From positions 1-22,115 of the IMG/VR virus record IMGVR_UViG_3300032323_001470: DNA of 22,115 nt. One strand, written 5' to 3'. This document shows, piece by piece, positions 5,345 to 22,115 of this stretch. The notes beneath the pieces are model-generated. The model ran no database searches. It was not told where the DNA came from and saw only the letters and a list, made by a program, of their open reading frames with translations. The translations under genes were made by a program, and so were the position numbers. The DNA is from a virus. Position 1 is the first letter of the stretch, and every line of letters starts with the position of its first letter.

Positions 5345-6478
5345 ATGCCACTATCGATTAATCCTATTGCTCAACTTGTTGCTTCTGTTTCTTCTAGCAT
5401 ATCCCAATCTACAAACGAAGCATCCTCGTTTGCTTCAGGATCAAACATGCTGGAAAAAGCCAACTTAGATGCGAAGATAAACCAGCTGTCTGGCGGATTA
5501 ACTTCGGGACTTAATGGACTGTCGAGTAATGCTAAGGGTGCATTTGGGCAGCTGTCTGATAGAGCATCGGCGATTGGTGGCTCCTTACCGGGTGCAACTG
5601 CATTGGGCGGTATTGGTAATAGTATCACAAGCACAGTCTCCGGTGGTATTAACTCACTACAAAGTGTTGCTGGATCAACCAGTAACTTAACTGCTGACAT
5701 CGCAGGCGGTCTTAATAAGCTAGCAGGCGGCAGTCTTGGCGGCGGCCTTATGAGTCTCGCTGGATCAATTAGTAAAGCCGCCGGCATGTTGAACAATGTA
5801 CTTAGTTTAAAGAGAGGAATCAATCTGCCATCGGGAGCAGAAGCTTTTATTAAACAAGGCCAAGCAATTCAACTTAATGCCTCTGCAAAAAACGACTGGC
5901 GTGTGAGAATTACCTGCCAGTGGAATATTTTTAACAGCCCGCTATTTGCTCTGTTAGAAAATACAGGCGGAGTTGTATGGCCATACTTGCCAAACATCAC
6001 AGTATCAACTAAGGCAGATTATTCTGCTATCAATACCACACACAGCAACTACACAAACTACGCTTACAAAAGCAGCATGGTAGATGATATAACAATCACA
6101 GGGGAGTTCAGCTGTGAAACAGAAACAGATGCTGCCTACTGGATTGCTGCTACAACATTCTTTAAAACAGCAACCAAAATGTTTTTTGGACAAGGCGACC
6201 TCGCAGGCAATCCGCCATTAATCTGTAACCTAACAGGTTATGGCTCAAGTATATTTGACAAGGTACCGGTTATTGTAAAAAGTTTTTCAGTCGACCTCAA
6301 AGACGACGTTAACTATGTGAGATGCAATAGCTTTGGAACTAATACCTGGGTGCCAGTATTAAGTACAATTACAGTGGTTGTGTCGCCAGTATACAATAGA
6401 CAGAGAATGCGCCAGTTTAGTCTACAAGATTATGCTCGTGGTAAAACAGCTGACAGCAGCGGAGTAGGATACATCTAA
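5345..6478 (+). CDS. 48: gp48 baseplate tail-tube cap protein
   Basis: gp48 sits on the baseplate hub and starts the tail tube. The 377 aa are close to T4 gp48 (364 aa). The C-terminal half (about 178-377) is the conserved tube-like domain, with the D-W-R-V-R-I start, K-V-P-V-I-V-K-S-F-S-V-D-L-K-D-D-V-N-Y, W-V-P-V-L-S-T-I, and the family ending S-P-V-Y-N-R-Q-R..F-S-L-Q-D-Y-A-R-G. The N-terminal part (about 15-165) is low complexity, rich in Gly, Ser, Ala and Leu, with hydrophobic spacing suggestive of amphipathic helices that could contact the tape measure or tube lumen. It is the first gene after the late promoter, and its stop overlaps the gp53 start (TAATG). Confidence 0.93.
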   Translation: MPLSINPIAQLVASVSSSISQSTNEASSFASGSNMLEKANLDAKINQLSGGLTSGLNGLSSNAKGAFGQLSDRASAIGGSLPGATALGGIGNSITSTVSGGINSLQSVAGSTSNLTADIAGGLNKLAGGSLGGGLMSLAGSISKAAGMLNNVLSLKRGINLPSGAEAFIKQGQAIQLNASAKNDWRVRITCQWNIFNSPLFALLENTGGVVWPYLPNITVSTKADYSAINTTHSNYTNYAYKSSMVDDITITGEFSCETETDAAYWIAATTFFKTATKMFFGQGDLAGNPPLICNLTGYGSSIFDKVPVIVKSFSVDLKDDVNYVRCNSFGTNTWVPVLSTITVVVSPVYNRQRMRQFSLQDYARGKTADSSGVGYI

Positions 6479-6777
6479 TGGCAACTTACGGCAACGCTAG
6501 TCCTTGGGCTACAACTTCACAAAACTCTTTGTATCTAAACCTATTAGACATTAGGCCAGTTCCTGCAGAAAGCGATGACTATAGATACGTAATTGAAAAT
6601 CAATATACACATCGTCCTGATCTATTAGCCTATGATCTATATGGTGAAGTTAAGTTATGGTGGGTGTTTATGCAAAGAAACATGAATATCATAAAAGACC
6701 CTATCTATGATTTTGTTCCCGGCACTGTGATCTACCTTCCTAAAAAAGGCAACCTAGAAAAATTCCTAGGAGTATAA
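6478..6777 (+). CDS. 53: gp53 baseplate wedge protein (short form)
   Basis: In T4 gp53 joins neighbouring wedges around the hub. This copy has 99 aa, about half of T4 gp53 (196 aa). It keeps the N-terminal segment and a short LysM-like portion at about 53-89: Y-D-L-Y-G-E-V-K-L-W-W-V-F-M, then N-I-I-K-D-P and F-V-P-G-T-V-I-Y-L-P. The ATG shares an A with the gp48 stop; AGGA at 6464-6467 serves as ribosome site. The call rests on this motif and on the position between gp48 and the hub genes. Short gp53 forms are known in marine T4-like phages. Confidence 0.85.
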   Translation: MATYGNASPWATTSQNSLYLNLLDIRPVPAESDDYRYVIENQYTHRPDLLAYDLYGEVKLWWVFMQRNMNIIKDPIYDFVPGTVIYLPKKGNLEKFLGV

Positions 6778-9247: not shown

Positions 9248-10843
9248 ATGGCACAACACAGACGATCATCAGCAGCCAACGATGGAAGGACCGGTGGACT
9301 AACCGACGGCATATATATTGCCCGAGTAATCAGTCATCTTGATCCTACCTTCATGGGATCGCTAGAAGTTACACTGCTTAAAGATCAAGGCAACACCGCC
9401 GGTGACGACAGTCAAATTCATATTGTAAAATATGCCTCGCCGTTCTTTGGGTATACACCTTTTGAGTTCATGGGCAAGAATGACGGAACTACTTCAACCA
9501 TAGAAGGATTTAACGACACACAAAAATCATACGGTATGTGGATGGTACCGCCCGATGTTGGAGTCAACGTACTTGTATTGTTTGTAGATGGCGATCCTAG
9601 TCAAGGTTACTGGTTTGCCTGTGTGCCTGGTCGCAGTATCAATAACATGGTGCCAGCAATTGCTGCTTCAACAGAAAATACATTAGACCCCACAGACAAG
9701 CAAAGATACGGTAATACCAAACAGCCGTTACCTGTAGCTGAGATAAACAAACGCATTAACGGCGAAAAGCAAGAAATAGACCCTGAAAAAATTAAAAAGG
9801 TAGTGCATCCGATTGCTGATAGATTTTTAGAACAAGGCTTGTTAGATGATGATATACGAGGCACTACTACATCGTCTCCAAGAAGAGAAGTTCCCGGCAT
9901 GGTGTTCGGCATATCAACGCCAGGTCCTGTTGATCGAAGAACCAATGCTAAAAAAGCAGTGATAGGTAAGAATGACAGCAAGTCTGCTCCTATACCTGTG
10001 AGCAGACTAGGTGGCACACAACTAGTATTTGACGACGGCGACGATCGATATCACAGAGAAAAATCTGCAGCTGAAGGCCCAGTTAAGTATGTTGACTTAT
10101 TAGAAAGTAAAAACAGTAACGATCAGGGGCAGCCAACTATTCCGTACAGTGAATATTTTAGAGTGCGCACTAGAACTGGTCATCAACTGTTGATGCACAA
10201 CTCAGAAGATTTAATTTATATTGGTAATGCTAGAGGCACCACTTGGATAGAACTTACCAGCAACGGTAAGATTGATATCTATGCTCAAGACAGTATTAGT
10301 ATTCATACTCAAACAGATTTAAACATTAGAGCAGATCGTGACATTAATATGGAAGCGGGAAGAAATTTTAACCTTAGAACAGAGTCGGGTAAATTTCACG
10401 CAGAGATTGCCACGGATCAAGAGTGGTTGGTTAACAAAGATGCAAAGCTCACAGTAGGATCCAATCTAGATGTCTTGGTTGGAGCCGCACTAAAAATATC
10501 TGCAAATACTGATTTTGAATTAGCTACAAACACAGAACTTAAAGTATCGGCTGCAGGAGATATTAGTGTGGGTTCAGCTTCAGAGCTTAAAATGAACGGT
10601 AGCAAAATTAATTTTAATGGCCCTAATAATGCTGAAACAGCAGCCGTGGCAGATTTTGTACGTCCGTACGATTTGCGAGATAATCCAGCAACTAGTTTTA
10701 GCGCAGGGTGGGATGTAAAACGATATCAGTCAGGAATAGTCAAAAGTTTTATGAAACGTATTCCAATGCATGAACCATGGGCCTTGCATGAAAATCAAGC
10801 ACCGGCTCAACTAACACCAGACAATACAGATAGGGATGTGTAA
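9248..10843 (+). CDS. 5: gp5 baseplate hub/spike subunit without lysozyme domain
   Basis: gp5 forms the trimeric needle under the hub that pierces the host envelope. The 531 aa include an N-terminal OB-fold (about 20-128: DGIYIARVISHLDPTFMGSL and WMVPPDVGVNVLVLFVDGDP). A middle segment (130-300) has no recognisable lysozyme catalytic region. The C-terminal beta-helix (about 305-465) is built of short alternating repeats (IDIYAQDSISIHTQ, LNIRADRDINMEAG, LKVSAAGDISVGS), as in the T4 gp5 C-terminal prism and VgrG. The tail after 475 contains M-H-E-P-W-A-L-H-E-N near 506-515. TAAGGA lies about 7 nt before the ATG. gp25 follows after 2 nt. No PAAR tip gene is seen here. Confidence 0.93.
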   Translation: MAQHRRSSAANDGRTGGLTDGIYIARVISHLDPTFMGSLEVTLLKDQGNTAGDDSQIHIVKYASPFFGYTPFEFMGKNDGTTSTIEGFNDTQKSYGMWMVPPDVGVNVLVLFVDGDPSQGYWFACVPGRSINNMVPAIAASTENTLDPTDKQRYGNTKQPLPVAEINKRINGEKQEIDPEKIKKVVHPIADRFLEQGLLDDDIRGTTTSSPRREVPGMVFGISTPGPVDRRTNAKKAVIGKNDSKSAPIPVSRLGGTQLVFDDGDDRYHREKSAAEGPVKYVDLLESKNSNDQGQPTIPYSEYFRVRTRTGHQLLMHNSEDLIYIGNARGTTWIELTSNGKIDIYAQDSISIHTQTDLNIRADRDINMEAGRNFNLRTESGKFHAEIATDQEWLVNKDAKLTVGSNLDVLVGAALKISANTDFELATNTELKVSAAGDISVGSASELKMNGSKINFNGPNNAETAAVADFVRPYDLRDNPATSFSAGWDVKRYQSGIVKSFMKRIPMHEPWALHENQAPAQLTPDNTDRDV

Positions 10844-10845
10844 TT

Positions 10846-11280
10846 ATGGGAAAACTTTATAATCAAAAATCAGTAGCAACAGCTAAAGCGGTAGTTTCTG
10901 AAAATCAAGGCACATTTACCTACAAAGGTTTTAGCTCTAAAGAAACGGCCAAGAACTATAAGCTCTATGATATTGATTTAGTAAAACAAGATCTGTTAAA
11001 TCATTTCTATATTCGCAAAGGTGAAAAGCTGGAAAACCCAGCATTTGGCACAGTGATCTGGGACATGCTTTTTGAACAGTTTACTGAAGATGTAAAAAAT
11101 ATTATTGCCAAGGATGTAGAAGATATCATTAACTATGATCCTCGTATCGCAGTAAATGAAGTACAGATAGATAGCACAGATCAAGGTATAAGGATACAAG
11201 CAGATATTGTTTATATTCCGTTTAACGTCAACGAGCGCATGACATTTAACTTTGATAAGACTAATTCTACGATAATCTGA
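10846..11280 (+). CDS. 25: gp25 baseplate wedge protein
   Basis: gp25 is a wedge-core protein that helps begin sheath polymerisation; the family is shared with phage P2 gpW and type VI secretion TssE. The 144 aa (T4: 132) carry the core segment G-E-K-L-E-N-P-A-F-G-T-V-I-W-D-M-L-F (about 57-74), the following helix F-T-E-D..N-I-I-A-K-D-V-E-D-I-I, and D-P-R-I with beta-strands to the end. It sits 2 nt after gp5 and 30 nt before gp6. Confidence 0.93.
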   Translation: MGKLYNQKSVATAKAVVSENQGTFTYKGFSSKETAKNYKLYDIDLVKQDLLNHFYIRKGEKLENPAFGTVIWDMLFEQFTEDVKNIIAKDVEDIINYDPRIAVNEVQIDSTDQGIRIQADIVYIPFNVNERMTFNFDKTNSTII

Positions 11281-11310: not shown

Positions 11311-14300
11311 ATGACAACAACTAGCAGACAAAATAATCTCATTTTAAATCAAGACTGGACTAGAATATACCAGACCTTTAAAAATGCAGACTTTAAATCC
11401 TACGACTTTGAAAATCTACGTAGGGTTATTATTACCTATCTACGTGAAAATTATCCTGAAGATTTCAACGATTATATTGAAAGTTCAGAGTATCTAGCAC
11501 TGATTGATGCAGTGGCATTTCTAGGTCAAAGCCTAGCATTCCGTATAGATCTAGCCAGCCGTGAAAACTTTATCGAGCTAGCAGAAACCAAAGAAAGCGT
11601 TCTGCGTATTGCTCGCATGCTCAGCTACAATGCTAAACGTAACATTGCTGCTAGCGGACTGTTAAAATTTACTTCAGTTACTACCACAGAAGATCTAGTA
11701 GACAGCAACGGTCGTAATTTGTCGCAACAGATTATTTCATGGAATGATCCTACAAATACTAACTGGCTAGAACAGTTTATTACAGTGTTAAATTCTGCAA
11801 TGGCAGACAACACAGAGTTTGGCCGAAGCCAAGGGTCTGCAGTTATACAGGGAATACCCACAGAACAATATCGTTTTAGAACTGCTGGCACAGACGTACC
11901 GTTGTTTTCGTTTAGTAAAACAGTGGCAGCTCGAGGCATGAGTTTTGAGATAGTTTCTACTGCATTTAAGAACAGTGAAAATATCTACGAAGAACCGCCA
12001 GTTCCGGGGAATCAGTTAGGATTTGTTTATAAAAATGATGCTACGGGTCCTGGATCGGCAAACACCGGTTTCTTTTTAATGTTTAAACAGGGCACCTTAG
12101 AACTGGCAGATTTTTCAATAGACATTCCTACCACTAATGAAAAAATTGCTGTCGATGCAGTTAATATCAATAATAATGACATTTGGTTATACAGTTTAAA
12201 TTCTGCAGGAGTTCAGCTTGAAGAGTGGTCTAAAGTTTCTAGTCTAGCTGGCAACAGTATTGCTTACAACAGTATAAGTCAAGATATTCGAAACATCTAT
12301 GCAATCAATACCAAAGAAAATGATACAGTTGATCTGGTGTTTGCAGATGGTGTCTACGGTAACTTACCCCAAGGAGCTTTTAGAGTTTATTATAGAACCA
12401 GCAATGGACTTTCGTACACTGTTTATCCTAACGAGCTTAGAGGAATCAATATTGGCGTCAGCTATGTTAACAAAGCCGGAGTTGATCATACCCTGACTAT
12501 TGGACTAGCCTTACAGTCAACAGTGGCCAACTCTGCCGCATCGGAAGACATCGACACTATCAGAACCAATGCTCCAGCAGTATACTACACACAGAATCGA
12601 ATGATTACTGCGGAAGATTATAATCTAGCACCGTTATCAGCTTCGCAGAATATTGTAAAAATTAAATCAGTAAACAGAACTTCTAGCGGAATCTCAAGAA
12701 ACTATGATTTGTTAGACGCTTCTGGAAAATACAGCAGTATAAATGTATTCTGTGATGACGGATATATCTATAAAGAAGAATCAGAAAATGTGTTAAGTTT
12801 TAAATTTGATAATAGAGTTGATGTTATTAATTTTATTAGACGCTCTATTGAGCCTGCATTTCTAGATTCTGAAGTTTATAATTTTTATTTTACAAAGTTT
12901 GATAGAATATTATTTACAGACACTAACACTGTTTGGCAGTCAGTGACTACAGCCACTTCTACAGGATATTTTAAAAACGTAATCGATAACTCGCTGTTAA
13001 AAGTTGCTTCATATTCAACCAGTAATTTAAAATATTTTACAGTTGAGTCTTTAATTAAATTTGTTCCACCTACAGGTAAAGCGTTCCGCCGAGGATTGCT
13101 AGTTGACATTGATCTTACTGATCCAGAACAAACTGACAGACTATGGACCAAAGCAGTTCGCATCTCAGGTGACGGCACAAATGCCGGTCGCGGAGTACTA
13201 ACTAACGGTCTCGGTCCAATAACACTAAGTGATAATATTCCTTCGGGAGCAATTGCTTCTAGGATTGTTCCTAGATTTGTATCTGACCTTAGTAATGCTC
13301 TAGAAGTTGAAATTGTAAATCAATCAGTGCAGAATCTAAATTTTGGACTACGCTACGATGTAACGACTACTGATTGGAAAGTTATCACGGGTTCAAATAT
13401 TAATTTGATTAATAACTTTAGTTTAGGTAAAGCTGGCGATGTAACTAACACCAACGTTGACGCATCTTGGGTAATTGCATTTGTTAAAGAACTAGATCGT
13501 TACACTGTGAGAATTAGAAAACTCAGCTATGTGTTTGGCAGTTTAGCGCAGAATCGTTTTTACTTTGACAGCAATGAAAAACGCTACAATGATCAAATAG
13601 GTAATGTGGTAAAAGACCAGATCAAGGTTCTTAGCATTAATACTGGACAGGATTTATTAACAGAGCTTAGACAAGACGTTCCTTTTGAAATAGCAGATAC
13701 AATTAAATTTGATGACGGGTTTGAAAGTACTACAGAACTAAAACTATCATTTTATGACAGTGACAACGATGGAGTAATCGATAATCCTGAATCGTTTGAA
13801 AAAATTGTAGGGACAGATCAAGAATTAAACTATCTATTTTTTCAAGAAACAGTAGATCAATTCGGTACCACACAGTATGTTCTGATTGACAACTCCGCCG
13901 ACTTTGTATTAGTTAGAGAAAAAGAATCAGTGGTTGATTTTACAGATACAGCAACATACCCTGATGGACAGCTGATTTATTTCTATGACATTGACCAAGA
14001 CGTAATTAAAAGAGTCAATAGAAATACCAACACTTTTGATCTTGAAAGAACTTATAAGTCGGTGATTGGAAGAAGAAATCTTAAATTTCAATATGTGCAT
14101 AATGCCAGCGTAGATCGTAGAATAGATCCTAGTTCTAGCAATATTATGGATATCTTTTTGTTGACAAGATCCTATGACGAAGCTTATAGAATATGGCTAT
14201 CTGGAGGAACCAGTGTAGAACCAGAAGCTCCAACAACAGATAGTTTGCGAACATCATTCGGTACAAACCTATCTCAGATTAAATCTATCAGCGATGAAAT

Positions 14301-14715
14301 CATTTACCATCCTGTAAAATACAAAGTATTATTTGGTGATAAAGCAGATCCTAAACTACAAGCAATATTTAAAGTGGTAAAAAATCCAAATCAATCTATC
14401 AACGACAACGATCTTAAAGTTAGAATTATTACAGCAATAAATGAATTTTTTGATATTAACAACTGGGACTTCGGTGACAGATTTTATATGAGCGAGTTAA
14501 CAACCTATATCCTAAATTCACTAGCCCCAGATCTTAGCAATATTGTAATCATGCCCAAACAGGCAGATCAAGTGTTTGGCAGCCTGTTTGAAATTCAAAG
14601 TAAGTCAGACGAAATTTTAATCAGCGGCGCCACTGTTGACAATATCAACATAGTTAAATCTATTACAGCCGCAGAAATTGGCACTAGCATCACTAATATA
14701 ACTACAGCAACTTAA
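11311..14715 (+). CDS. 6: gp6 baseplate wedge protein, enlarged
   Basis: gp6 forms the inner ring of the baseplate and belongs to the baseplate J family. Residues about 30-115 carry the hallmark: dense helices with E-S-S-E-Y-L-A-L-I-D-A-V-A-F-L-G and R-E-N-F-I-E-L-A-E-T-K-E-S-V-L-R-I-A-R-M-L-S-Y. The middle has Y-G-N-L-P-Q-G-A-F-R-V-Y-Y-R-T near 350-364, and the C-terminus (about 1005-1090) ends in the usual wedge-linking domain. At 1134 aa it is far longer than T4 gp6 (660 aa). The extra mass is mainly in residues about 530-960. Residues 816-824 (DSDNDGVID) form a calcium-loop motif. The start is ATG 11311 with AAGG about 12 nt upstream; an ATG at 11303 is out of frame. Confidence 0.93.
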   Translation: MTTTSRQNNLILNQDWTRIYQTFKNADFKSYDFENLRRVIITYLRENYPEDFNDYIESSEYLALIDAVAFLGQSLAFRIDLASRENFIELAETKESVLRIARMLSYNAKRNIAASGLLKFTSVTTTEDLVDSNGRNLSQQIISWNDPTNTNWLEQFITVLNSAMADNTEFGRSQGSAVIQGIPTEQYRFRTAGTDVPLFSFSKTVAARGMSFEIVSTAFKNSENIYEEPPVPGNQLGFVYKNDATGPGSANTGFFLMFKQGTLELADFSIDIPTTNEKIAVDAVNINNNDIWLYSLNSAGVQLEEWSKVSSLAGNSIAYNSISQDIRNIYAINTKENDTVDLVFADGVYGNLPQGAFRVYYRTSNGLSYTVYPNELRGINIGVSYVNKAGVDHTLTIGLALQSTVANSAASEDIDTIRTNAPAVYYTQNRMITAEDYNLAPLSASQNIVKIKSVNRTSSGISRNYDLLDASGKYSSINVFCDDGYIYKEESENVLSFKFDNRVDVINFIRRSIEPAFLDSEVYNFYFTKFDRILFTDTNTVWQSVTTATSTGYFKNVIDNSLLKVASYSTSNLKYFTVESLIKFVPPTGKAFRRGLLVDIDLTDPEQTDRLWTKAVRISGDGTNAGRGVLTNGLGPITLSDNIPSGAIASRIVPRFVSDLSNALEVEIVNQSVQNLNFGLRYDVTTTDWKVITGSNINLINNFSLGKAGDVTNTNVDASWVIAFVKELDRYTVRIRKLSYVFGSLAQNRFYFDSNEKRYNDQIGNVVKDQIKVLSINTGQDLLTELRQDVPFEIADTIKFDDGFESTTELKLSFYDSDNDGVIDNPESFEKIVGTDQELNYLFFQETVDQFGTTQYVLIDNSADFVLVREKESVVDFTDTATYPDGQLIYFYDIDQDVIKRVNRNTNTFDLERTYKSVIGRRNLKFQYVHNASVDRRIDPSSSNIMDIFLLTRSYDEAYRIWLSGGTSVEPEAPTTDSLRTSFGTNLSQIKSISDEIIYHPVKYKVLFGDKADPKLQAIFKVVKNPNQSINDNDLKVRIITAINEFFDINNWDFGDRFYMSELTTYILNSLAPDLSNIVIMPKQADQVFGSLFEIQSKSDEILISGATVDNINIVKSITAAEIGTSITNITTAT

Positions 14716-14719
14716 TAAT

Positions 14720-17700
14720 ATGGCAAACAAAAAATTTCCTAAAAGCGGTTTACCAATCAGAAGATCTGTAGAGCTACTACCAGTAGTTTTTCAAACAGAG
14801 GCTAACGATAAATTTTTATCCGGAGTATTAGATCCTCTAGTTCAGCCCGGTGTATTAGACAAAGTAGTGGGCTATGTTGGTCGCAGATATGGTAAAACCT
14901 ATAACGGTTCTGATGTTTACGTAGATACAGACAACACACTAAGAAGTCGTTATCAACTCGAGCCTGGAATAATTTATAGAAACGGCGACAAAATAGAAAA
15001 CTTCTATGACTACATAGATTTTAAAAATCAACTGAAATTTTTTGGTAATACTGATAACAGAGATGACAAGATTGTCAATCAAGAACATTATTCTTGGAAT
15101 CCTCCTATTGATTGGGACAAGTTTATTAATTACCGAGAATATTTTTGGACTCCTAACGGCCCTCCCGATATTCCAGTATTTGGTCAAAATGCAGGAGTAG
15201 CCAGTACCTATAAGGTTATTTTAGGCGCAACAAAAAATTCTTTTGTTTTTACGCCTGACTCTTACACAAACAATCCTACAATCACTCTTTACCGAGGCCA
15301 AACTTATTACTTTAAGATCAATGCGCCTGGCGAAGGTTTTGCTATTAAAACAAATTTTGACACCGGTTCTTTATTGTTTAGACCTTATGATCAATATTTT
15401 GCCGGAGACCTAACAGTCTACGATGGAAAACTATTTAGAGCCAAACAAAATATTCCTATTGCTGACGGCAGTTCTGTAGACCTAGACAGTCAAGATTGGG
15501 AATACCTAGAGCCAGCATCTGCAGGTACTGCGTTGGACTATAATAAAGGTGTAACTAATAATGGAACAGAAAACGGTACGCTGACATTTGAAGTTCCCTA
15601 TGATGCTCCTAGTACACTGTATTATCAAGGCCTTATTACTCCGGATTGTTTTGGTAGATTTATAATTGCAGATATCGAAGAAAATACCAAAATTGATGTA
15701 GAAAAAGAAATTATAGGAAAGTCTTCTTATACATCTGCCAACGGTATAGAATTTACTAATGGGCTGGTAGTTGAGTTTAGAGGAATGGTTACTCCTGAAA
15801 AATACAGTACTAACACATGGTTGGTAGAAGGGGTAGGTCGTGCAATCACTCTAACTAAATTTGCTGACTTAATTGTGCCAGTATTATCGGGCGCAGAAGT
15901 TCCTGAAATATTGTTTGACAATGATGGCTTTGACACACAGCCGTTTGATGATGCAGCGTCTTTTCCAACATACAAAGATTATATCACTATAGCCAGAGAC
16001 AGCCTAGATGCTAACCCTTGGAGCCGCTATAATAGATGGTTTCATAGAAGTGTTTTAGAAAAAGCCTACAAGCTGAGAGGAGATGATTTTCCAGCTCCAG
16101 AGTCCGCCAGAGCCAAACGTCCTATTATTGAGTTTTCAGCTAACCTTCAATTATTCAACCACGGAGCAGTAGCCAAACAAACAGTAGACTTTATTGATAC
16201 ATCAACTGCAGATATATTTTCTACAGTAGAAGGAAGCATAGGCTACAACGTTGATGGAGAAAATTTATTTGAAGGTGCAAGATTATTGGTTATTGCAGAC
16301 ACAGATACGCTGACCAATAATAAGATATATGAAGTTAAATTTATACGGCATATTAATAATACTCAGATACATCTACAAGAAACAGATGATACTATTTCTA
16401 ACTTCAACGAAGGAATACTAGTACGTCGCGGTATACAAAATGGCGGAAAAATGTTCTATTTTAACGGAACTAGTTGGCTGCCAAGTCAAGCTAAACTCAC
16501 AGCTAACCAACCTCCGATGTTTGATGCGTTTGATAAAAACGGCGTAAGTTTTTCAGACCCACTCACATATCCAACTAGCACATTCTTTGGTACAAAACTA
16601 TTAAGTTATAAAATAGGAAACGCCCGAGTTGATTCTGAATTAGGATTCAGCCTAAGTTATCTTAATATAGATAATGTGGGAGATATAGAATTTAACTGGG
16701 ACTGGGACACAGATGTAGTAAATTATACCATAGCTCGTCAGCCACAGTCTACAAAAATATCCACCGGATTTTACAAATTTTATCTTAACACCGTCTATGA
16801 CAATGCTTGGTTACTGATGAATAATCAATTCTTACAACCAATTGTAGACAGCCAGATAGTAGTTAACAATACTAACACTGTGACATTTAATACCATTGAT
16901 TGGATTGCATTAACCACAGAGCCAACTATTAACGTATATGTCAACGGCGTACGGTATGTAAAATCTTATACAAGGAATCAAGGAACTTTTACATTCTCTA
17001 CGCAACTACTTGCCAAGGATGTAGTAGTATTAAAAATTATTACAGATCTCGAACCAGATCAAGGCTACTACGAAATACCCGTAGGACTAGAAAAAAATCC
17101 GTTTAATGCTCCTTTGCAGTCTTTCACACTAGGACAATCAGTTGACCACATTACTACGGCTCTAGAATTTGATACCGCAGTCGTTGGCAGCACTCCAGGA
17201 AACAGTAATCTTAGAGATATCTCAGGTTATCAGGTAAATGCCAAGCGTTTTGTAAAGCATTCGGGATTAGCTCCATTAGCTATTATGACGCTGTGTGATA
17301 AAACTTATAATATAGTTAAATCTATCCAGTATGCCAAAAAGGCCTATACAGATTTTAAAAATAATTTTATTAATCGAGCTTTAGAAATAGACTACAATGA
17401 CAATGTTGCAGATTTTGTAGACGACATTATTAATAGTCTAACTAAAACCAAAACAGACGCCAGTCCGTTCTATGACACTGACATGATTGGTGCAGGGGCA
17501 TACAACAAAATATCTTACGTTGTTGAAGACACTGGGATCAAAACCTTTTCATTGTCTGAAAAATTTGATCTACAAATATTAAGCAAGAGAGCGGTATATG
17601 TATATGTCAACGATCAGCAGTTATTAAACACCAAGCAGTATATATTTGATTCTACATTTGGCTTTATAACATTGCTGGTAGATTTTGCAGAGGGTGACAC

Positions 17701-20700
17701 GGTTGAAATTAGAGAATATTTGTCAACATCTACTAGTCATATTCCACCAACTCCTTCATCGATGGGACTGTACAAAAAGTACACCCCAATGAAATTTATA
17801 GATGACACTTATGTTGAGTCTAGAGAAATAGTTCAAGGACACGACGGTAGTATTACTGCTGCCTATGGAGATTATCGAGATGATTTATTATTAGAATTAG
17901 AATATAGAATCTATAATAATATCAAGCAACAATATGATGAAACTGTTTTTGACATTGATCAAACTGTTGGAGGTTATTACGGAGTAGGATTATATAAAAA
18001 ATCTCAACTAGACAACATTGTTAATCAAGAATTTTTAAAGTGGATTCAAAACACCAATATTAACTATACTCTAAACGAGTATTTTGATACTGAAAATTCA
18101 TTTACCTATACCTACTCTGCAATGACAGATCCTACCAAGTCTGTAAACTTGCCAGGCTATTGGAGAGGGGTATACAAATGGTTCTACGACACAGATCGAC
18201 CACATCGTTGCCCTTGGGAGATGTTGGGGTTCTCAGAACAACCGTCATGGTGGGAAGAGATTTATGGACCAGCACCTTATACTAAGAACAACTTAATTCT
18301 TTGGGAAGATTTACGCGACGGATTAATTCGGCAAGGACCTAGGGCCGGTCGTATAGATAGATATAAACGTCCATCGTTATTAGATCATATTCCGGTAGAT
18401 GCCGACGGTAAGTTATTGAGCCCATTAGATTCTGCACTAGCACAAGATTTTTCTTTAATAAACAATAAAGGACCTTTTGTTCTAGGAGACATTGCCCCAG
18501 CTGAATATGCATGGAGAGCTAGCTCAGAGTGGCCATTTGCGGTGACTATGGCCATGTGCCTAATGAAACCTTTCGAGTTTATTACCGATAGTTTTGACAG
18601 GTCTAAAGCTGTTTTAAATTTATTAGACCAGTCAATTGATGCAGACAGCAATCTATTTACAACTAAAAGTGATCTTACCGATAGACCATTATCAGATCCG
18701 CATGTGGGTCTATTAAAATATCTTGTTGGGTATATAAAATCTAGAGGCATTGCTGCTGATACAATTTTAGATAAGATTAGTAATTTAGATGTTGCGCTGT
18801 CTCATAGAATGAGCGGATTTGTTGACCAACAACAACAAAAGTTTTTATTGGATTCGAAGAGCCCGTCTGCTTCTGCAGCCAGCATTTTTATTCCGCCTGA
18901 AAACTACGATATTATTTTTAACGTTAGCGCCCCTATTGCTAGCGTGAGTTATAGCGGAGTTATCTTAGAAAAAACAGAAGGCGGGTGGATAGTCACAGGC
19001 TACGATGATATTGAGCCGTATTTTAACTATCATCAGGCAATGCCTAATCAACGAGATCCACTAATATCAGTTGGCGGAGTTAGCGAATCATTTTTAGATT
19101 GGACTCCGGACAAAAGTTACAACAACGGAACCTTGATTAGATACACTACTAATTTTTATAGAGCTTTAAGAACACACAGAAGCGGTGCAGATTTTGAAGA
19201 GGCTCTCTGGCAGAAATTAGGTAATATTCCTAAGGTAGGAGCCGTAGAGGCACTGAGAAGACGATCATTTAATACCTTAGCAGTAAAACGTTTGAGCTAT
19301 GGTACAAAACTGATTAGCATACAACAGGTAGTTGATTTTTTATTAGGCTATGAAAGCTATCTAAAATCTCAAGGGTTTAAATTTGACAGATACGATCCAG
19401 AAAATCAAACCAGTCAAGATTGGTTTACTTCGGTAAAAGAATTCATGTTTTGGACCAAACACAATTGGGAAATAGGTAGTTTGATTGCACTGAGCCCTGC
19501 TGCAGAAAAAGTAGATGTTACTATAGCTGTTGGTGTAGCAGATAATGTGCTTGATGGATTTTACGATTATCAAATACTCAAAGGTGACGGAAAACCGTTA
19601 CAGCCAAGATTTATCAATATCAATCGACAGTTTCAGAATGTCACAGTAGAAACCACAAATACCACAGATGGAATATTTTATCTGAAGCTTTACTACGTCC
19701 TCAAAGAACATGTCACAGTATTTGACGACAGAACAGTGTTTAATGATATTATCTATGATAAGACTACAGGATATCGTCAAAGTCGTATTAAAGTTCAAGG
19801 ATTCCGCACAGTTGATTGGGACGGTGATTATACCAGCCCCGGTTTCTTATTTGATAATGTTAACATCCAATCGTGGCAGCCTTTTACTGACTATCGACTA
19901 GGAGATATTGTTGCTTACAAGTCTTATAATTGGACTAGTTCAAAAAATCAATTAGGTACAGAATCTTTTGATGAGTCCTTTTGGAGTATCTTAGATACTA
20001 CCCCACAAAAAGAACTTATTTCAAACTTTGATTATAAAGTTAATCAGTTTTCAGATTACTTTGAAGTAACATCTCAGGGCGCCGGTCAAAGTCAACGAGA
20101 TCTTGCACGGCATACTTTGGGTTATCAACAAAGAGATTACCTACAAAACCTTTCAGAAGATCCTGTAACACAGTTTCAGATATATCAAGGATTTATTAGA
20201 GAAAAGGGTTCGGCTAATGCAATCACTAAGATTTTCAACAAGCTCAGTCGTTCGGGATCTGACAGTGTAATTTTAAATGAAGAATGGGCATTTTTGATTG
20301 GTCGCATGGGCGGCACCGATCAGTTAACAGAAATTGAAATACAAATAGAAAAAAATAAATTTGAACTTAACCCGCAGATATTTTTAATTGAGCCAGGCAA
20401 ATCTACGCAGGACATTGATCAAAATTATAGATTATCAATATCAGATTTTACTATTTCTCCAATCCCGTACACCACTGATATTACACCATTAACGGTTGAT
20501 ATATCACCAACTGCTACTGCCGGTTATGTTACATTAGAACAGTTTGATCAGTCCGTAATAACTAGAGAAAATTTAACTGACTTAGACATTACTACGGTCA
20601 ATGAGAATGATCATATTTGGGTAACCTTTGATAAAGATTCTTGGAATGTTCTACGAGTAAATGAAATTCTATTGTTATATGTTACAGAAGTAACTCGGAT

Positions 20701-22115
20701 AGACGATACAGTAGTTAGAGTAATTTTTAATAGACCACATTCATTTGAAGCTGAGCAGTATGTTGGATTTAGAGAAATTATTAATCTAACAGGTTTCTAT
20801 AAGATAACAGCAGTAACTAATGATTCTGTTGATCTTGAAGTCTCGGCAGACATACAAAACCCAGAACTGGATACTAGTACAGTAATCAATCCGCAAGGAC
20901 TAACAGAATGTAGATTTGCCAGCTATGAAAGTTTAATTGAAGGAGTAGCCGCACTTTATAAAAATGGTTCTAAAATATTCATAGACAACAATGGCAATAC
21001 TTTATGGGAAGTTATTGAAAAAACTAAACAATATTCAGAAAAATTAATCACTGACTATGGAACATCTACTCCTTTAAAAACAGGCGAGAAGGTTATCTAT
21101 GACAACAACAATAGACACACTATTGTTAGTATTCCGGGATCAGGCATAGTTGTTGTTTATGCAGAAGCCGCTGATGGATTAAGATTAAAACAGATTATTT
21201 CGCCTCCTACAGGATTTTTCAACAGTGCGTTGGGATCGTTTGGTAAAAAAATGGCTATCAGCCCCGACGGAAGATACTTAGTTATTGGAGCTCCAGAAGC
21301 CAGCGGTGTAACATCAAACTATCTAGGAGAATGGGATGTTGGCGTGTTTTACCAGCAAGACGATATAGTACTATACGCTGGAAGATTGTGGAAAGCTAAA
21401 AATCGAAATTCAGTATTACCTGATAATAGTACCGAGTTGGCCATAAACACAGACGACTGGGAGTTAGTTACAAATATTCCTGCACTGACCTCGGGTCGAA
21501 GTGCAGGCTTATTTGAACAGGGAATGATAGCCATATACAGGTATGCAAATGGCAGATACACCATTGACAGCGCCTATGTAAGCCCTCGGCCAGCCGACAA
21601 TGAAAAATTTGGTTCAGAAATAGCAATAGGTGTTAGCGGAACAAATTATTATCTTACCGTATCCGCAGTTGGCTCGTATAATAATACGGGTAGAGTCTAC
21701 CTTTACAAGTTTAATGGTACATCGTGGAATCATCTTGAAAATAATAGATATAAAGGCATATACGACCCCGGCACATCATATTACTTAGGAGATATTGTCT
21801 GGCAAGCATCTCAAGATCCTATAACCGAGGGAGTTCGAGGAAATCTTTGGACGTCGTTGGAAGATTCAACTTCAGATGGTAGCACACTTACAATAGAATC
21901 TAATAGTTGGCTAAAGATTAGTGCTATTTCAACACACTGCTCGTTGCCAACAAATATAGCGGTAGAGGATGATGGCTCAACATTAGAGTTTGCATATACA
22001 GGATTATTGTCAGATACACAAATGGCAGAGCTTGTAAAATCAGGCGATCAGTTTGGATTCAGTATGGCCATGAATGTTGACGGTAGTATTTTAATCATAG
22101 GCGCTCCGGATGCAG
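14720..22115 (+). CDS. Giant baseplate/tail structural protein in gp7 (VrlC-like) position, partial
   Basis: The frame is open from ATG 14720, 4 nt after the gp6 stop, to the window end: at least 2465 codons (T4 gp7 is 1032 aa). There is no clear ribosome site, so translational coupling is likely. By position it replaces T4 gp7, a wedge protein; such giants are called VrlC or virion structural protein in cyanophage annotations. Visible parts: a cupredoxin-like domain (about 164-320) with a carbohydrate-binding-like module inserted (227-265); a core with P-W-E-M-L-G-F (1165-1171) and L-W-E-D-L-R-D-G-L-I-R; further chitin-binding-like modules at 1461-1502, 1719-1762, 2205-2251 and 2346-2384, each with an aromatic-rich pattern like Y..G..V.Y....Y.A and an ending W; and FG-GAP beta-propeller blades from 2174 to the edge. 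A wedge-plus-peripheral-adhesin role is inferred. Confidence 0.93.
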   Translation, partial: MANKKFPKSGLPIRRSVELLPVVFQTEANDKFLSGVLDPLVQPGVLDKVVGYVGRRYGKTYNGSDVYVDTDNTLRSRYQLEPGIIYRNGDKIENFYDYIDFKNQLKFFGNTDNRDDKIVNQEHYSWNPPIDWDKFINYREYFWTPNGPPDIPVFGQNAGVASTYKVILGATKNSFVFTPDSYTNNPTITLYRGQTYYFKINAPGEGFAIKTNFDTGSLLFRPYDQYFAGDLTVYDGKLFRAKQNIPIADGSSVDLDSQDWEYLEPASAGTALDYNKGVTNNGTENGTLTFEVPYDAPSTLYYQGLITPDCFGRFIIADIEENTKIDVEKEIIGKSSYTSANGIEFTNGLVVEFRGMVTPEKYSTNTWLVEGVGRAITLTKFADLIVPVLSGAEVPEILFDNDGFDTQPFDDAASFPTYKDYITIARDSLDANPWSRYNRWFHRSVLEKAYKLRGDDFPAPESARAKRPIIEFSANLQLFNHGAVAKQTVDFIDTSTADIFSTVEGSIGYNVDGENLFEGARLLVIADTDTLTNNKIYEVKFIRHINNTQIHLQETDDTISNFNEGILVRRGIQNGGKMFYFNGTSWLPSQAKLTANQPPMFDAFDKNGVSFSDPLTYPTSTFFGTKLLSYKIGNARVDSELGFSLSYLNIDNVGDIEFNWDWDTDVVNYTIARQPQSTKISTGFYKFYLNTVYDNAWLLMNNQFLQPIVDSQIVVNNTNTVTFNTIDWIALTTEPTINVYVNGVRYVKSYTRNQGTFTFSTQLLAKDVVVLKIITDLEPDQGYYEIPVGLEKNPFNAPLQSFTLGQSVDHITTALEFDTAVVGSTPGNSNLRDISGYQVNAKRFVKHSGLAPLAIMTLCDKTYNIVKSIQYAKKAYTDFKNNFINRALEIDYNDNVADFVDDIINSLTKTKTDASPFYDTDMIGAGAYNKISYVVEDTGIKTFSLSEKFDLQILSKRAVYVYVNDQQLLNTKQYIFDSTFGFITLLVDFAEGDTVEIREYLSTSTSHIPPTPSSMGLYKKYTPMKFIDDTYVESREIVQGHDGSITAAYGDYRDDLLLELEYRIYNNIKQQYDETVFDIDQTVGGYYGVGLYKKSQLDNIVNQEFLKWIQNTNINYTLNEYFDTENSFTYTYSAMTDPTKSVNLPGYWRGVYKWFYDTDRPHRCPWEMLGFSEQPSWWEEIYGPAPYTKNNLILWEDLRDGLIRQGPRAGRIDRYKRPSLLDHIPVDADGKLLSPLDSALAQDFSLINNKGPFVLGDIAPAEYAWRASSEWPFAVTMAMCLMKPFEFITDSFDRSKAVLNLLDQSIDADSNLFTTKSDLTDRPLSDPHVGLLKYLVGYIKSRGIAADTILDKISNLDVALSHRMSGFVDQQQQKFLLDSKSPSASAASIFIPPENYDIIFNVSAPIASVSYSGVILEKTEGGWIVTGYDDIEPYFNYHQAMPNQRDPLISVGGVSESFLDWTPDKSYNNGTLIRYTTNFYRALRTHRSGADFEEALWQKLGNIPKVGAVEALRRRSFNTLAVKRLSYGTKLISIQQVVDFLLGYESYLKSQGFKFDRYDPENQTSQDWFTSVKEFMFWTKHNWEIGSLIALSPAAEKVDVTIAVGVADNVLDGFYDYQILKGDGKPLQPRFININRQFQNVTVETTNTTDGIFYLKLYYVLKEHVTVFDDRTVFNDIIYDKTTGYRQSRIKVQGFRTVDWDGDYTSPGFLFDNVNIQSWQPFTDYRLGDIVAYKSYNWTSSKNQLGTESFDESFWSILDTTPQKELISNFDYKVNQFSDYFEVTSQGAGQSQRDLARHTLGYQQRDYLQNLSEDPVTQFQIYQGFIREKGSANAITKIFNKLSRSGSDSVILNEEWAFLIGRMGGTDQLTEIEIQIEKNKFELNPQIFLIEPGKSTQDIDQNYRLSISDFTISPIPYTTDITPLTVDISPTATAGYVTLEQFDQSVITRENLTDLDITTVNENDHIWVTFDKDSWNVLRVNEILLLYVTEVTRIDDTVVRVIFNRPHSFEAEQYVGFREIINLTGFYKITAVTNDSVDLEVSADIQNPELDTSTVINPQGLTECRFASYESLIEGVAALYKNGSKIFIDNNGNTLWEVIEKTKQYSEKLITDYGTSTPLKTGEKVIYDNNNRHTIVSIPGSGIVVVYAEAADGLRLKQIISPPTGFFNSALGSFGKKMAISPDGRYLVIGAPEASGVTSNYLGEWDVGVFYQQDDIVLYAGRLWKAKNRNSVLPDNSTELAINTDDWELVTNIPALTSGRSAGLFEQGMIAIYRYANGRYTIDSAYVSPRPADNEKFGSEIAIGVSGTNYYLTVSAVGSYNNTGRVYLYKFNGTSWNHLENNRYKGIYDPGTSYYLGDIVWQASQDPITEGVRGNLWTSLEDSTSDGSTLTIESNSWLKISAISTHCSLPTNIAVEDDGSTLEFAYTGLLSDTQMAELVKSGDQFGFSMAMNVDGSILIIGAPDA
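21239..22115 (+). repeat. FG-GAP propeller blades interleaved with carbohydrate-binding-like modules (protein repeat)
   Basis: Three FG-GAP-like blades can be read inside the giant protein. The first starts F-G-K-K-M-A-I-S-P-D-G (from residue 2174) and reaches V-I-G-A-P (2188-2192). The second starts F-G-S-E-I-A-I (from 2297) and reaches G-R-V-Y-L-Y (2324-2329). The third starts F-G-F-S-M-A-M-N-V-D-G and ends I-I-G-A-P-D-A at the window edge. Chitin-binding-like modules at 2205-2251 and 2346-2384 lie between them. The propeller must continue beyond the window. Confidence 0.65.

Follow-up and report, generated by a model that had tools for sequence, protein, structure and literature searches.

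What is an integrin-like propeller, interrupted by small chitin-binding-like modules, doing in a protein that seems to belong to a phage baseplate? The question is raised by the end of a phage contig fragment of 22,115 bases (the window: the entire stretch of DNA analysed here), the virus record of which holds no further contigs. The last open reading frame of the window encodes 2465 amino acids and is still open where the contig stops. A first-pass annotation, made from the letters alone, had read FG-GAP blades with carbohydrate-binding-like modules from position 21239 onward and had proposed a multivalent adhesin. A search of viral contigs for relatives yielded 42 loci. The full gene, of about 4,616 amino acids, is present in a relative with 90% identity (L013, a contig of 198 kb); on this evidence the giant protein continues for some 2,150 residues past the end of the window, and the window covers a little over half of the protein and around half of its propeller. 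In loci L035 and L036 the matched stretch of the giant-gene frame is broken by 8 and 22 stop codons, respectively; these are perhaps assembly frameshifts.

The assignment to the baseplate is borne out by the neighbourhood: synteny with genes for gp53-, gp5-, gp25- and gp6-like proteins (Table 1) places the giant protein in the baseplate. Both profile homology and position after gp25 and gp6 identify it as a member of phrog_10938, the giant virion structural protein of RaK2/PA5oct/Atu_ph07-type jumbo phages, which includes PA5oct gp355, Atu_ph07 gp180, Munch 262 and SCTP-2 140. In PA5oct, Atu_ph07 and Munch, as in the window, the giant gene follows gp25 and gp6; in PA5oct and Munch the baseplate genes ahead of it are also arranged as in the window, and are preceded by genes for a recombination endonuclease and a late sigma factor. 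The record of PA5oct gp355 notes that mass spectrometry (MS) found it in the virion, and the block that follows the propeller finds matches in 56 isolated phage records. Position alone suggests that the giant protein is the equivalent of T4 gp7. A profile of the scaffold (A6) matched only chitin-binding domains (1ed7) among solved structures and showed no homology to T4 gp7 by sequence; no PDB match to the scaffold extends beyond the chitin-binding-type module.

Table 1. Coordinates of annotated features in the window, with strand and basis of assignment.
Feature	Position	Strand	Basis
gp53-like baseplate wedge protein	6478..6777	+	PF11246 E 5.9e-6
gp5/VgrG-like hub and spike protein	9248..10843	+	PF04717 E 2.1e-4 (under curated cut-off); phrog_13211 E 8.8e-48
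gp25-like baseplate wedge protein	10846..11280	+	PF04965 E 3.9e-8
gp6-like baseplate wedge subunit	11311..14715	+	phrog_10646 E 2.5e-289; phrog_219 E 3e-22
Giant baseplate-region structural protein	14720..22115	+	phrog_10938 virion structural protein E 1.7e-236; PA5oct gp355 synteny
CBM5/12-like module of the N-terminal scaffold, outside the propeller	15380..15514	+	propeller/module profile, sequence
Core CBM5/12-like scaffold module, common to isolated jumbo phages	19097..19222	+	Pfam in relatives; profile A6
Third CBM5/12-like scaffold module	19871..19996	+	motif match, sequence
Conserved 'AGYV...HIW...SW' domain, just ahead of the propeller	20516..20665	+	
Blade W1 (TGEKVIYDNNN..KQIIS)	21080..21202	+	strand pattern, model mabb411251ddf residues 204-239
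Blade W2, strands 1-2, FG-GAP motif FGKKMAISPDGRYLVIGAP	21239..21304	+	Pfam FG-GAP_2, model
Module I1, CBM5/12 fold, strand 2-3 loop of blade W2	21317..21475	+	Pfam CBM_5_12; model ma5aef06d3a31
Blade W2, strands 3-4 (QGMIAIYRYANGRYTIDSAYV)	21518..21580	+	model
Blade W3 (FGSEIAIGVSG..YYLTVSAVGS..GRVYLYKFNGTSWNHLEN)	21608..21742	+	model, alignment
Module I2, CBM5/12-like, between blades W3 and W4	21743..21928	+	homology to I1 in alignment A4
Blade W4, strands 1-2, FG-GAP motif, cut by contig end	22052..22114	+	Pfam, L013 sequence, model

The propeller is recognisable in the letters themselves. Position 21239 is exactly the F with which FGKKMAISPDGRYLVIGAPEAS (FGKKMAIS...VIGAP) begins; the same blade resumes after the first module with QGMIAIYRYANGRY (QGMIAIYRY), GRVYLYKFNGTSWNHLEN (GRVYLY...WNHLEN) lies at 21689..21742, and the next FG-GAP motif, FGFSMAMNVDGSILIIGAPDA, is interrupted by the contig end. 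The remainder, comprising a third module (I3) and blades W5-W7, lies past the window and is seen in L013. Pfam places both families above their cut-offs in the last 338 amino acids: FG-GAP_2 with E 1.9e-5 (25.2 bits, cut-off 23) and CBM_5_12 with E 4.4e-6 (27.1 bits, cut-off 26.2). In full-length L013 the E-values are 5.6e-15 for FG-GAP_2 (PF14312) and 1.9e-12 for CBM_5_12. Ahead of the propeller, a match to the AGYV profile is present in environmental loci that have both flanks.

A model of the propeller was obtained with AlphaFold2 from an alignment of 39 non-redundant relatives (mean pLDDT 79.9, pTM 0.76). The order of its strands is consistent with seven blades of four strands each (model residues about 204-239, 256-366, 376-417, 527-639, 665-710, 718-788 and 802-855), that is, a predicted closed seven-bladed propeller. 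The integrin-alpha comparison made in the first-pass annotation also holds: Foldseek against the PDB put integrin alpha heads at the top (TM-score to target up to 0.63), and VIA-align gave integrin alphaL (5e6u_A) a Z of 29.0 with an rmsd of 3.1 over 360 aligned residues. WD40 proteins, which are other seven-bladed propellers, follow close behind at Z about 28. Because these scores are nearly equal, the likeness to integrins rests on the FG-GAP motifs and the general seven-bladed fold. Common to both are the seven blades, motifs of FG-GAP type and the insertion of a domain into a loop (alphaL has an alpha-I domain). In contrast to integrin alpha, with which identity is ∼17%, the phage propeller is of FG-GAP_2 rather than calcium-loop type, has no beta subunit, and carries several small inserts in place of one I domain, in other loops. 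DxDxDG calcium loops are absent from all six FG-GAP hairpins read in the full-length protein P0003: five have the loops SPDGR, VSGNN, NVDGS, DAAGN and SPNGE, and the sixth is without a loop motif.

FG-GAP proteins that match the propeller are numerous among viral structure models, from both giant viruses and phages, and include a separate protein of Atu_ph07; FG-GAP propellers in viruses are thus already known. A tblastn search with the propeller against 50,697 phage records returned none at E 0.01 and three marginal matches at E 1. In the literature nothing was found that joins an FG-GAP propeller to a phage baseplate, and a search on FG-GAP in bacteriophage tails returned giant-virus and unrelated papers only. 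In Atu_ph07, FG-GAP_2 repeats occur away from the giant gene, in an ORF of 409 aa (W01:C1:243045-243311), which is probably the protein called hemagglutinin in the viral structure library.

Of particular interest is the placement of the modules. I1 (NYLGEWDVGVFYQQDDIVLYAGRLWKAKN...DDWELVTN) sits within a blade, in the strand 2-3 loop of W2, with VIGAP before it and QGMIAIYRY after; I2 (NRYKGIYDPGTSYYLGDIVW...SWLKISAI) directly follows the GRVYLY and WNHLE stretch; and I3, placed by alignment and model, occupies the 2-3 loop of W4. For the first two this is just where the first-pass annotation had put them. The alternation of blades and modules that it described needs refinement: modules interrupt the first half of the propeller only, with none in blades 5-7, and the protein runs well beyond the window.

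The three modules are mutually homologous (alignment A4, 41 sequences), and 25 of the 41 modules match PF02839 at E≤0.01. Compared with the PDB, the A4 profile found as its top match residues 38-69 of Cis13, from the contractile injection system of Anabaena (E 1.2e-7), followed by the chitinase domain 2rts (1.1e-6), the Milano tail spike 8fqc (3e-5) and 1ed7 (0.0057). Cis13 is also the module's top match in Foldseek. Modelled alone (pLDDT 80), I1 is predicted to adopt the small three-stranded fold of ChiA1/ChiB type, and it resembles phage domains (A-1(L) fibre, Z 6.4; Milano gp124 tail spike, Z 6.2) and chitin-binding domains (chitin deacetylase, Z 6.0; ChiB, Z 5.6). Z values of 4-6 are modest for a domain of 53 residues, but nearly all the matches belong to one family and they agree with the sequence profile. 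For I2 and I3 confidence in the propeller model is moderate, roughly 55-75. Chance similarity of the modules was considered and is ruled out by the E-values, the fold matches and conservation. Modules of CBM fold on the loops of a propeller are thereby upheld, and the two outcomes that would have spoken against them, a fold other than a propeller and modules without the CBM-type fold, were both looked for in the predicted models and neither was found.

The fold is not confined to the propeller. Three further CBM5/12-like modules lie in the scaffold (Table 1): the N-terminal one is matched by profile at residues about 222-283 in most loci covering the region, and the core module has Pfam matches at the equivalent place in Atu_ph07, PA5oct and SCTP-2, three of the four isolates (Munch being the fourth) with which the window's protein shares the conserved blocks considered below.

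Does the fold signify sugar binding? Chitin-binding members of CBM family 5/12 stack sugars on an aromatic pair or on a tryptophan further on; examples in the profile alignment are AKYWT in 2rts and QQDW in the Vibrio deacetylase (DA1). We scored these residues in 185 modules from 66 non-redundant slots. Both aromatics of the AKYW pair were present in none, a single one was kept in 8, and 7 had a tryptophan between the position of the pair and the last tryptophan. With the pair lost, the usual sugar-binding platform is absent from the scored modules, although it is possible that some non-classical mode of sugar binding would be compatible with this loss. The phage modules are therefore like the chitin binders of the family (ChiA1 1ed7, ChiB, Vibrio deacetylase, 2rts) in sequence profile and fold, but unlike them in having no sugar-stacking aromatics.

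A second set of relatives carries the same fold in the service of virion assembly: Cis13/All3316 (7b5h), domain D2 of CBA120 TSP1, Milano gp124 (8fqc), the A-1(L) fibre (8kec) and the insertion domain of the T4 capsid. For the head-binding subdomain D2 of TSP1, a crystallised example, polysaccharide binding is unreported (PMC3966878), and the chitin-binding-like insertion domain of the T4 capsid bridges adjacent molecules (PMC3185693). Cis13 is a tail-fibre-like trimer whose N-terminal domain binds the baseplate and which has an intermediary domain (PMC8894136); the residues matched by our profile would correspond to that intermediary domain. In these proteins the module is found N-terminally in a fibre or spike, or else in a capsid protein, whereas in the window's protein it is inserted into propeller blades. 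'Chitin-binding' labels in phage tails may thus denote a fold reused for assembly rather than sugar binding. One such label is carried by the homologue in Pseudomonas phage vB_Pa-PAC2.

These observations bear directly on the adhesin originally proposed, in which the propeller would show three carbohydrate-binding modules to host glycans or polysaccharide particles. The CBM5/12 fold and profile, the correspondence of the module-bearing loops to the ligand face of integrins, and a module number that differs between phages, as host-driven selection would predict, are all in keeping with it. We nonetheless regard it as unlikely: the aromatic pair of the chitin binders is missing as a pair from 185 of 185 scored modules, the fold is a common non-sugar building block of phage tail and baseplate proteins, and the conserved scaffold also has a module of this kind, at a place where a variable role in host binding is improbable. 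Adhesion to glycans or to particles is possible, but the sequence gives no indication of it, and it is not the reading that we favour.

Comparison with relatives shows what the propeller replaces. When a profile built from 41 relatives, full-length or partial, was compared with the proteins of Atu_ph07, PA5oct, SCTP-2 and Munch, it aligned on either side of the propeller but not across it, so that, as in the window's protein, conserved blocks flank a slot; in these four isolates (the ones in which the slot was tested, other isolates being matched by the flanking block only) no propeller was found there by profile. Instead the slot, some 200-1500 residues long, is filled with 209 to 1533 other residues. 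That of SCTP-2 (L127, protein residues about 2014-2373) has no match in Pfam; a reading by eye as a LamG/ConA-type domain found no Pfam support and was set aside. When the Atu_ph07 block was used to search viral contigs, only Atu_ph07 itself was returned.

The number of modules in environmental relatives ranges from 0 to 3, and their sites are fixed. Of 78 non-redundant rows, 42 show a propeller with three modules, 9 with two and 1 with one, 18 have a propeller without a detected module (detection was by profile, which may miss diverged modules) and 8 have no propeller. In a tree of the flanking block from the same rows (a quick method, with the isolates on long branches) all propeller rows fall on one side of a branch with SH-aLRT 99, and at least two changes are required to account for which rows have modules. 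I2 is absent in 5 of 66 non-redundant relatives; within the three-module clade of the tree it is missing from L157, L159 and the L163/L165/L171 group. Together these form a natural series, from a slot without propeller, through a bare propeller, to propellers with one, two and three modules: a conserved jumbo-phage baseplate protein exchanging a whole display domain.

The series also offers some ground for thinking that the propeller itself is the receptor-binding part, contacting protein or glycan at its top face, the modules serving only to orient or shield it. The sister group of 15 rows that includes L222 has a bare propeller (FG-GAP_2 E 5.8e-21 in L222), so a propeller has a use even without modules. 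The top face is where propellers of integrin type bind ligands, and by analogy this one might do likewise; FG-GAP propellers, however, also act as plain scaffolds, and we consider a receptor-binding propeller possible but doubtful.

Variation of this kind could also be read as neutral accretion, the slot accepting any compact domain and neither propeller nor modules having a selected binding role. The range of slot lengths among relatives would accord with this, as would the further domains that some relatives carry in other propeller loops and even inside modules. Yet I1 and I3 occur in every one of the 66 non-redundant slots in the group to which the window belongs, their core residues are conserved, and the blades are kept intact; neutral accretion is accordingly the reading to which we give least credence.

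On balance we think it somewhat probable that the propeller is an exchangeable interaction platform, set in the variable slot of a jumbo-myophage baseplate protein, with modules that dock or space rather than bind sugar. Support is good for the anatomy, whereas the function is inferred. In this account the first half of a seven-bladed FG-GAP propeller fills the window's part of the variable slot of a baseplate protein of ∼4,600 residues. Of the three modules of CBM5/12 fold, I1 and I3 are plugged into the 2-3 loops of W2 and W4, and I2 into the 4-1 loop that joins W3 to W4. The equivalent loops of integrins are found on the upper face, where the ligand binds. Since the insertion points are 2-3 and 4-1 loops of three adjacent blades, the modules should be crowded together in a single sector of one face. 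From this topology they would be displayed on a single face of a propeller presumably located at the baseplate edge, where they may serve, in a structural role, to dock or space adjacent baseplate proteins or tail fibres.

The close relative L013 encodes two other giant ORFs, of 1871 aa and 2628 aa (L214:5369-10984 and L214:2-5335, both on the reverse strand; G001:C1 about 122-129 kb), which start with around seven tandem CBM5/12-like modules and continue into long fibre-like regions; the pattern recurs in G002-G004. Such N-terminal arrays of the same type suggest that docking of fibres could be module-mediated. A more specific proposal, that the propeller modules are sockets for tail fibres and pair with the N-terminal CBM5/12 arrays of fibres from the same genome, strikes us as decidedly improbable; were it true, the CBM5/12 fold would serve phages for docking and not for binding sugar. 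In jumbo phage phiKp24, N-terminal fibre parts have been modelled as docking sites for further fibres, by way of T4 gp10-like domains (PMC9700779).

Other slots are more elaborate still. Those of L194, L202, L203, L037 and L166 have an extra small module (GTTDF..GxxxxxxGTxFxATGxGTGTG), nested within I2 or I3 or placed in other propeller loops. In the divergent group of L233, L258 and L264, 400-600 residues are added within or after I1, giving slots of 1200-1350 aa.
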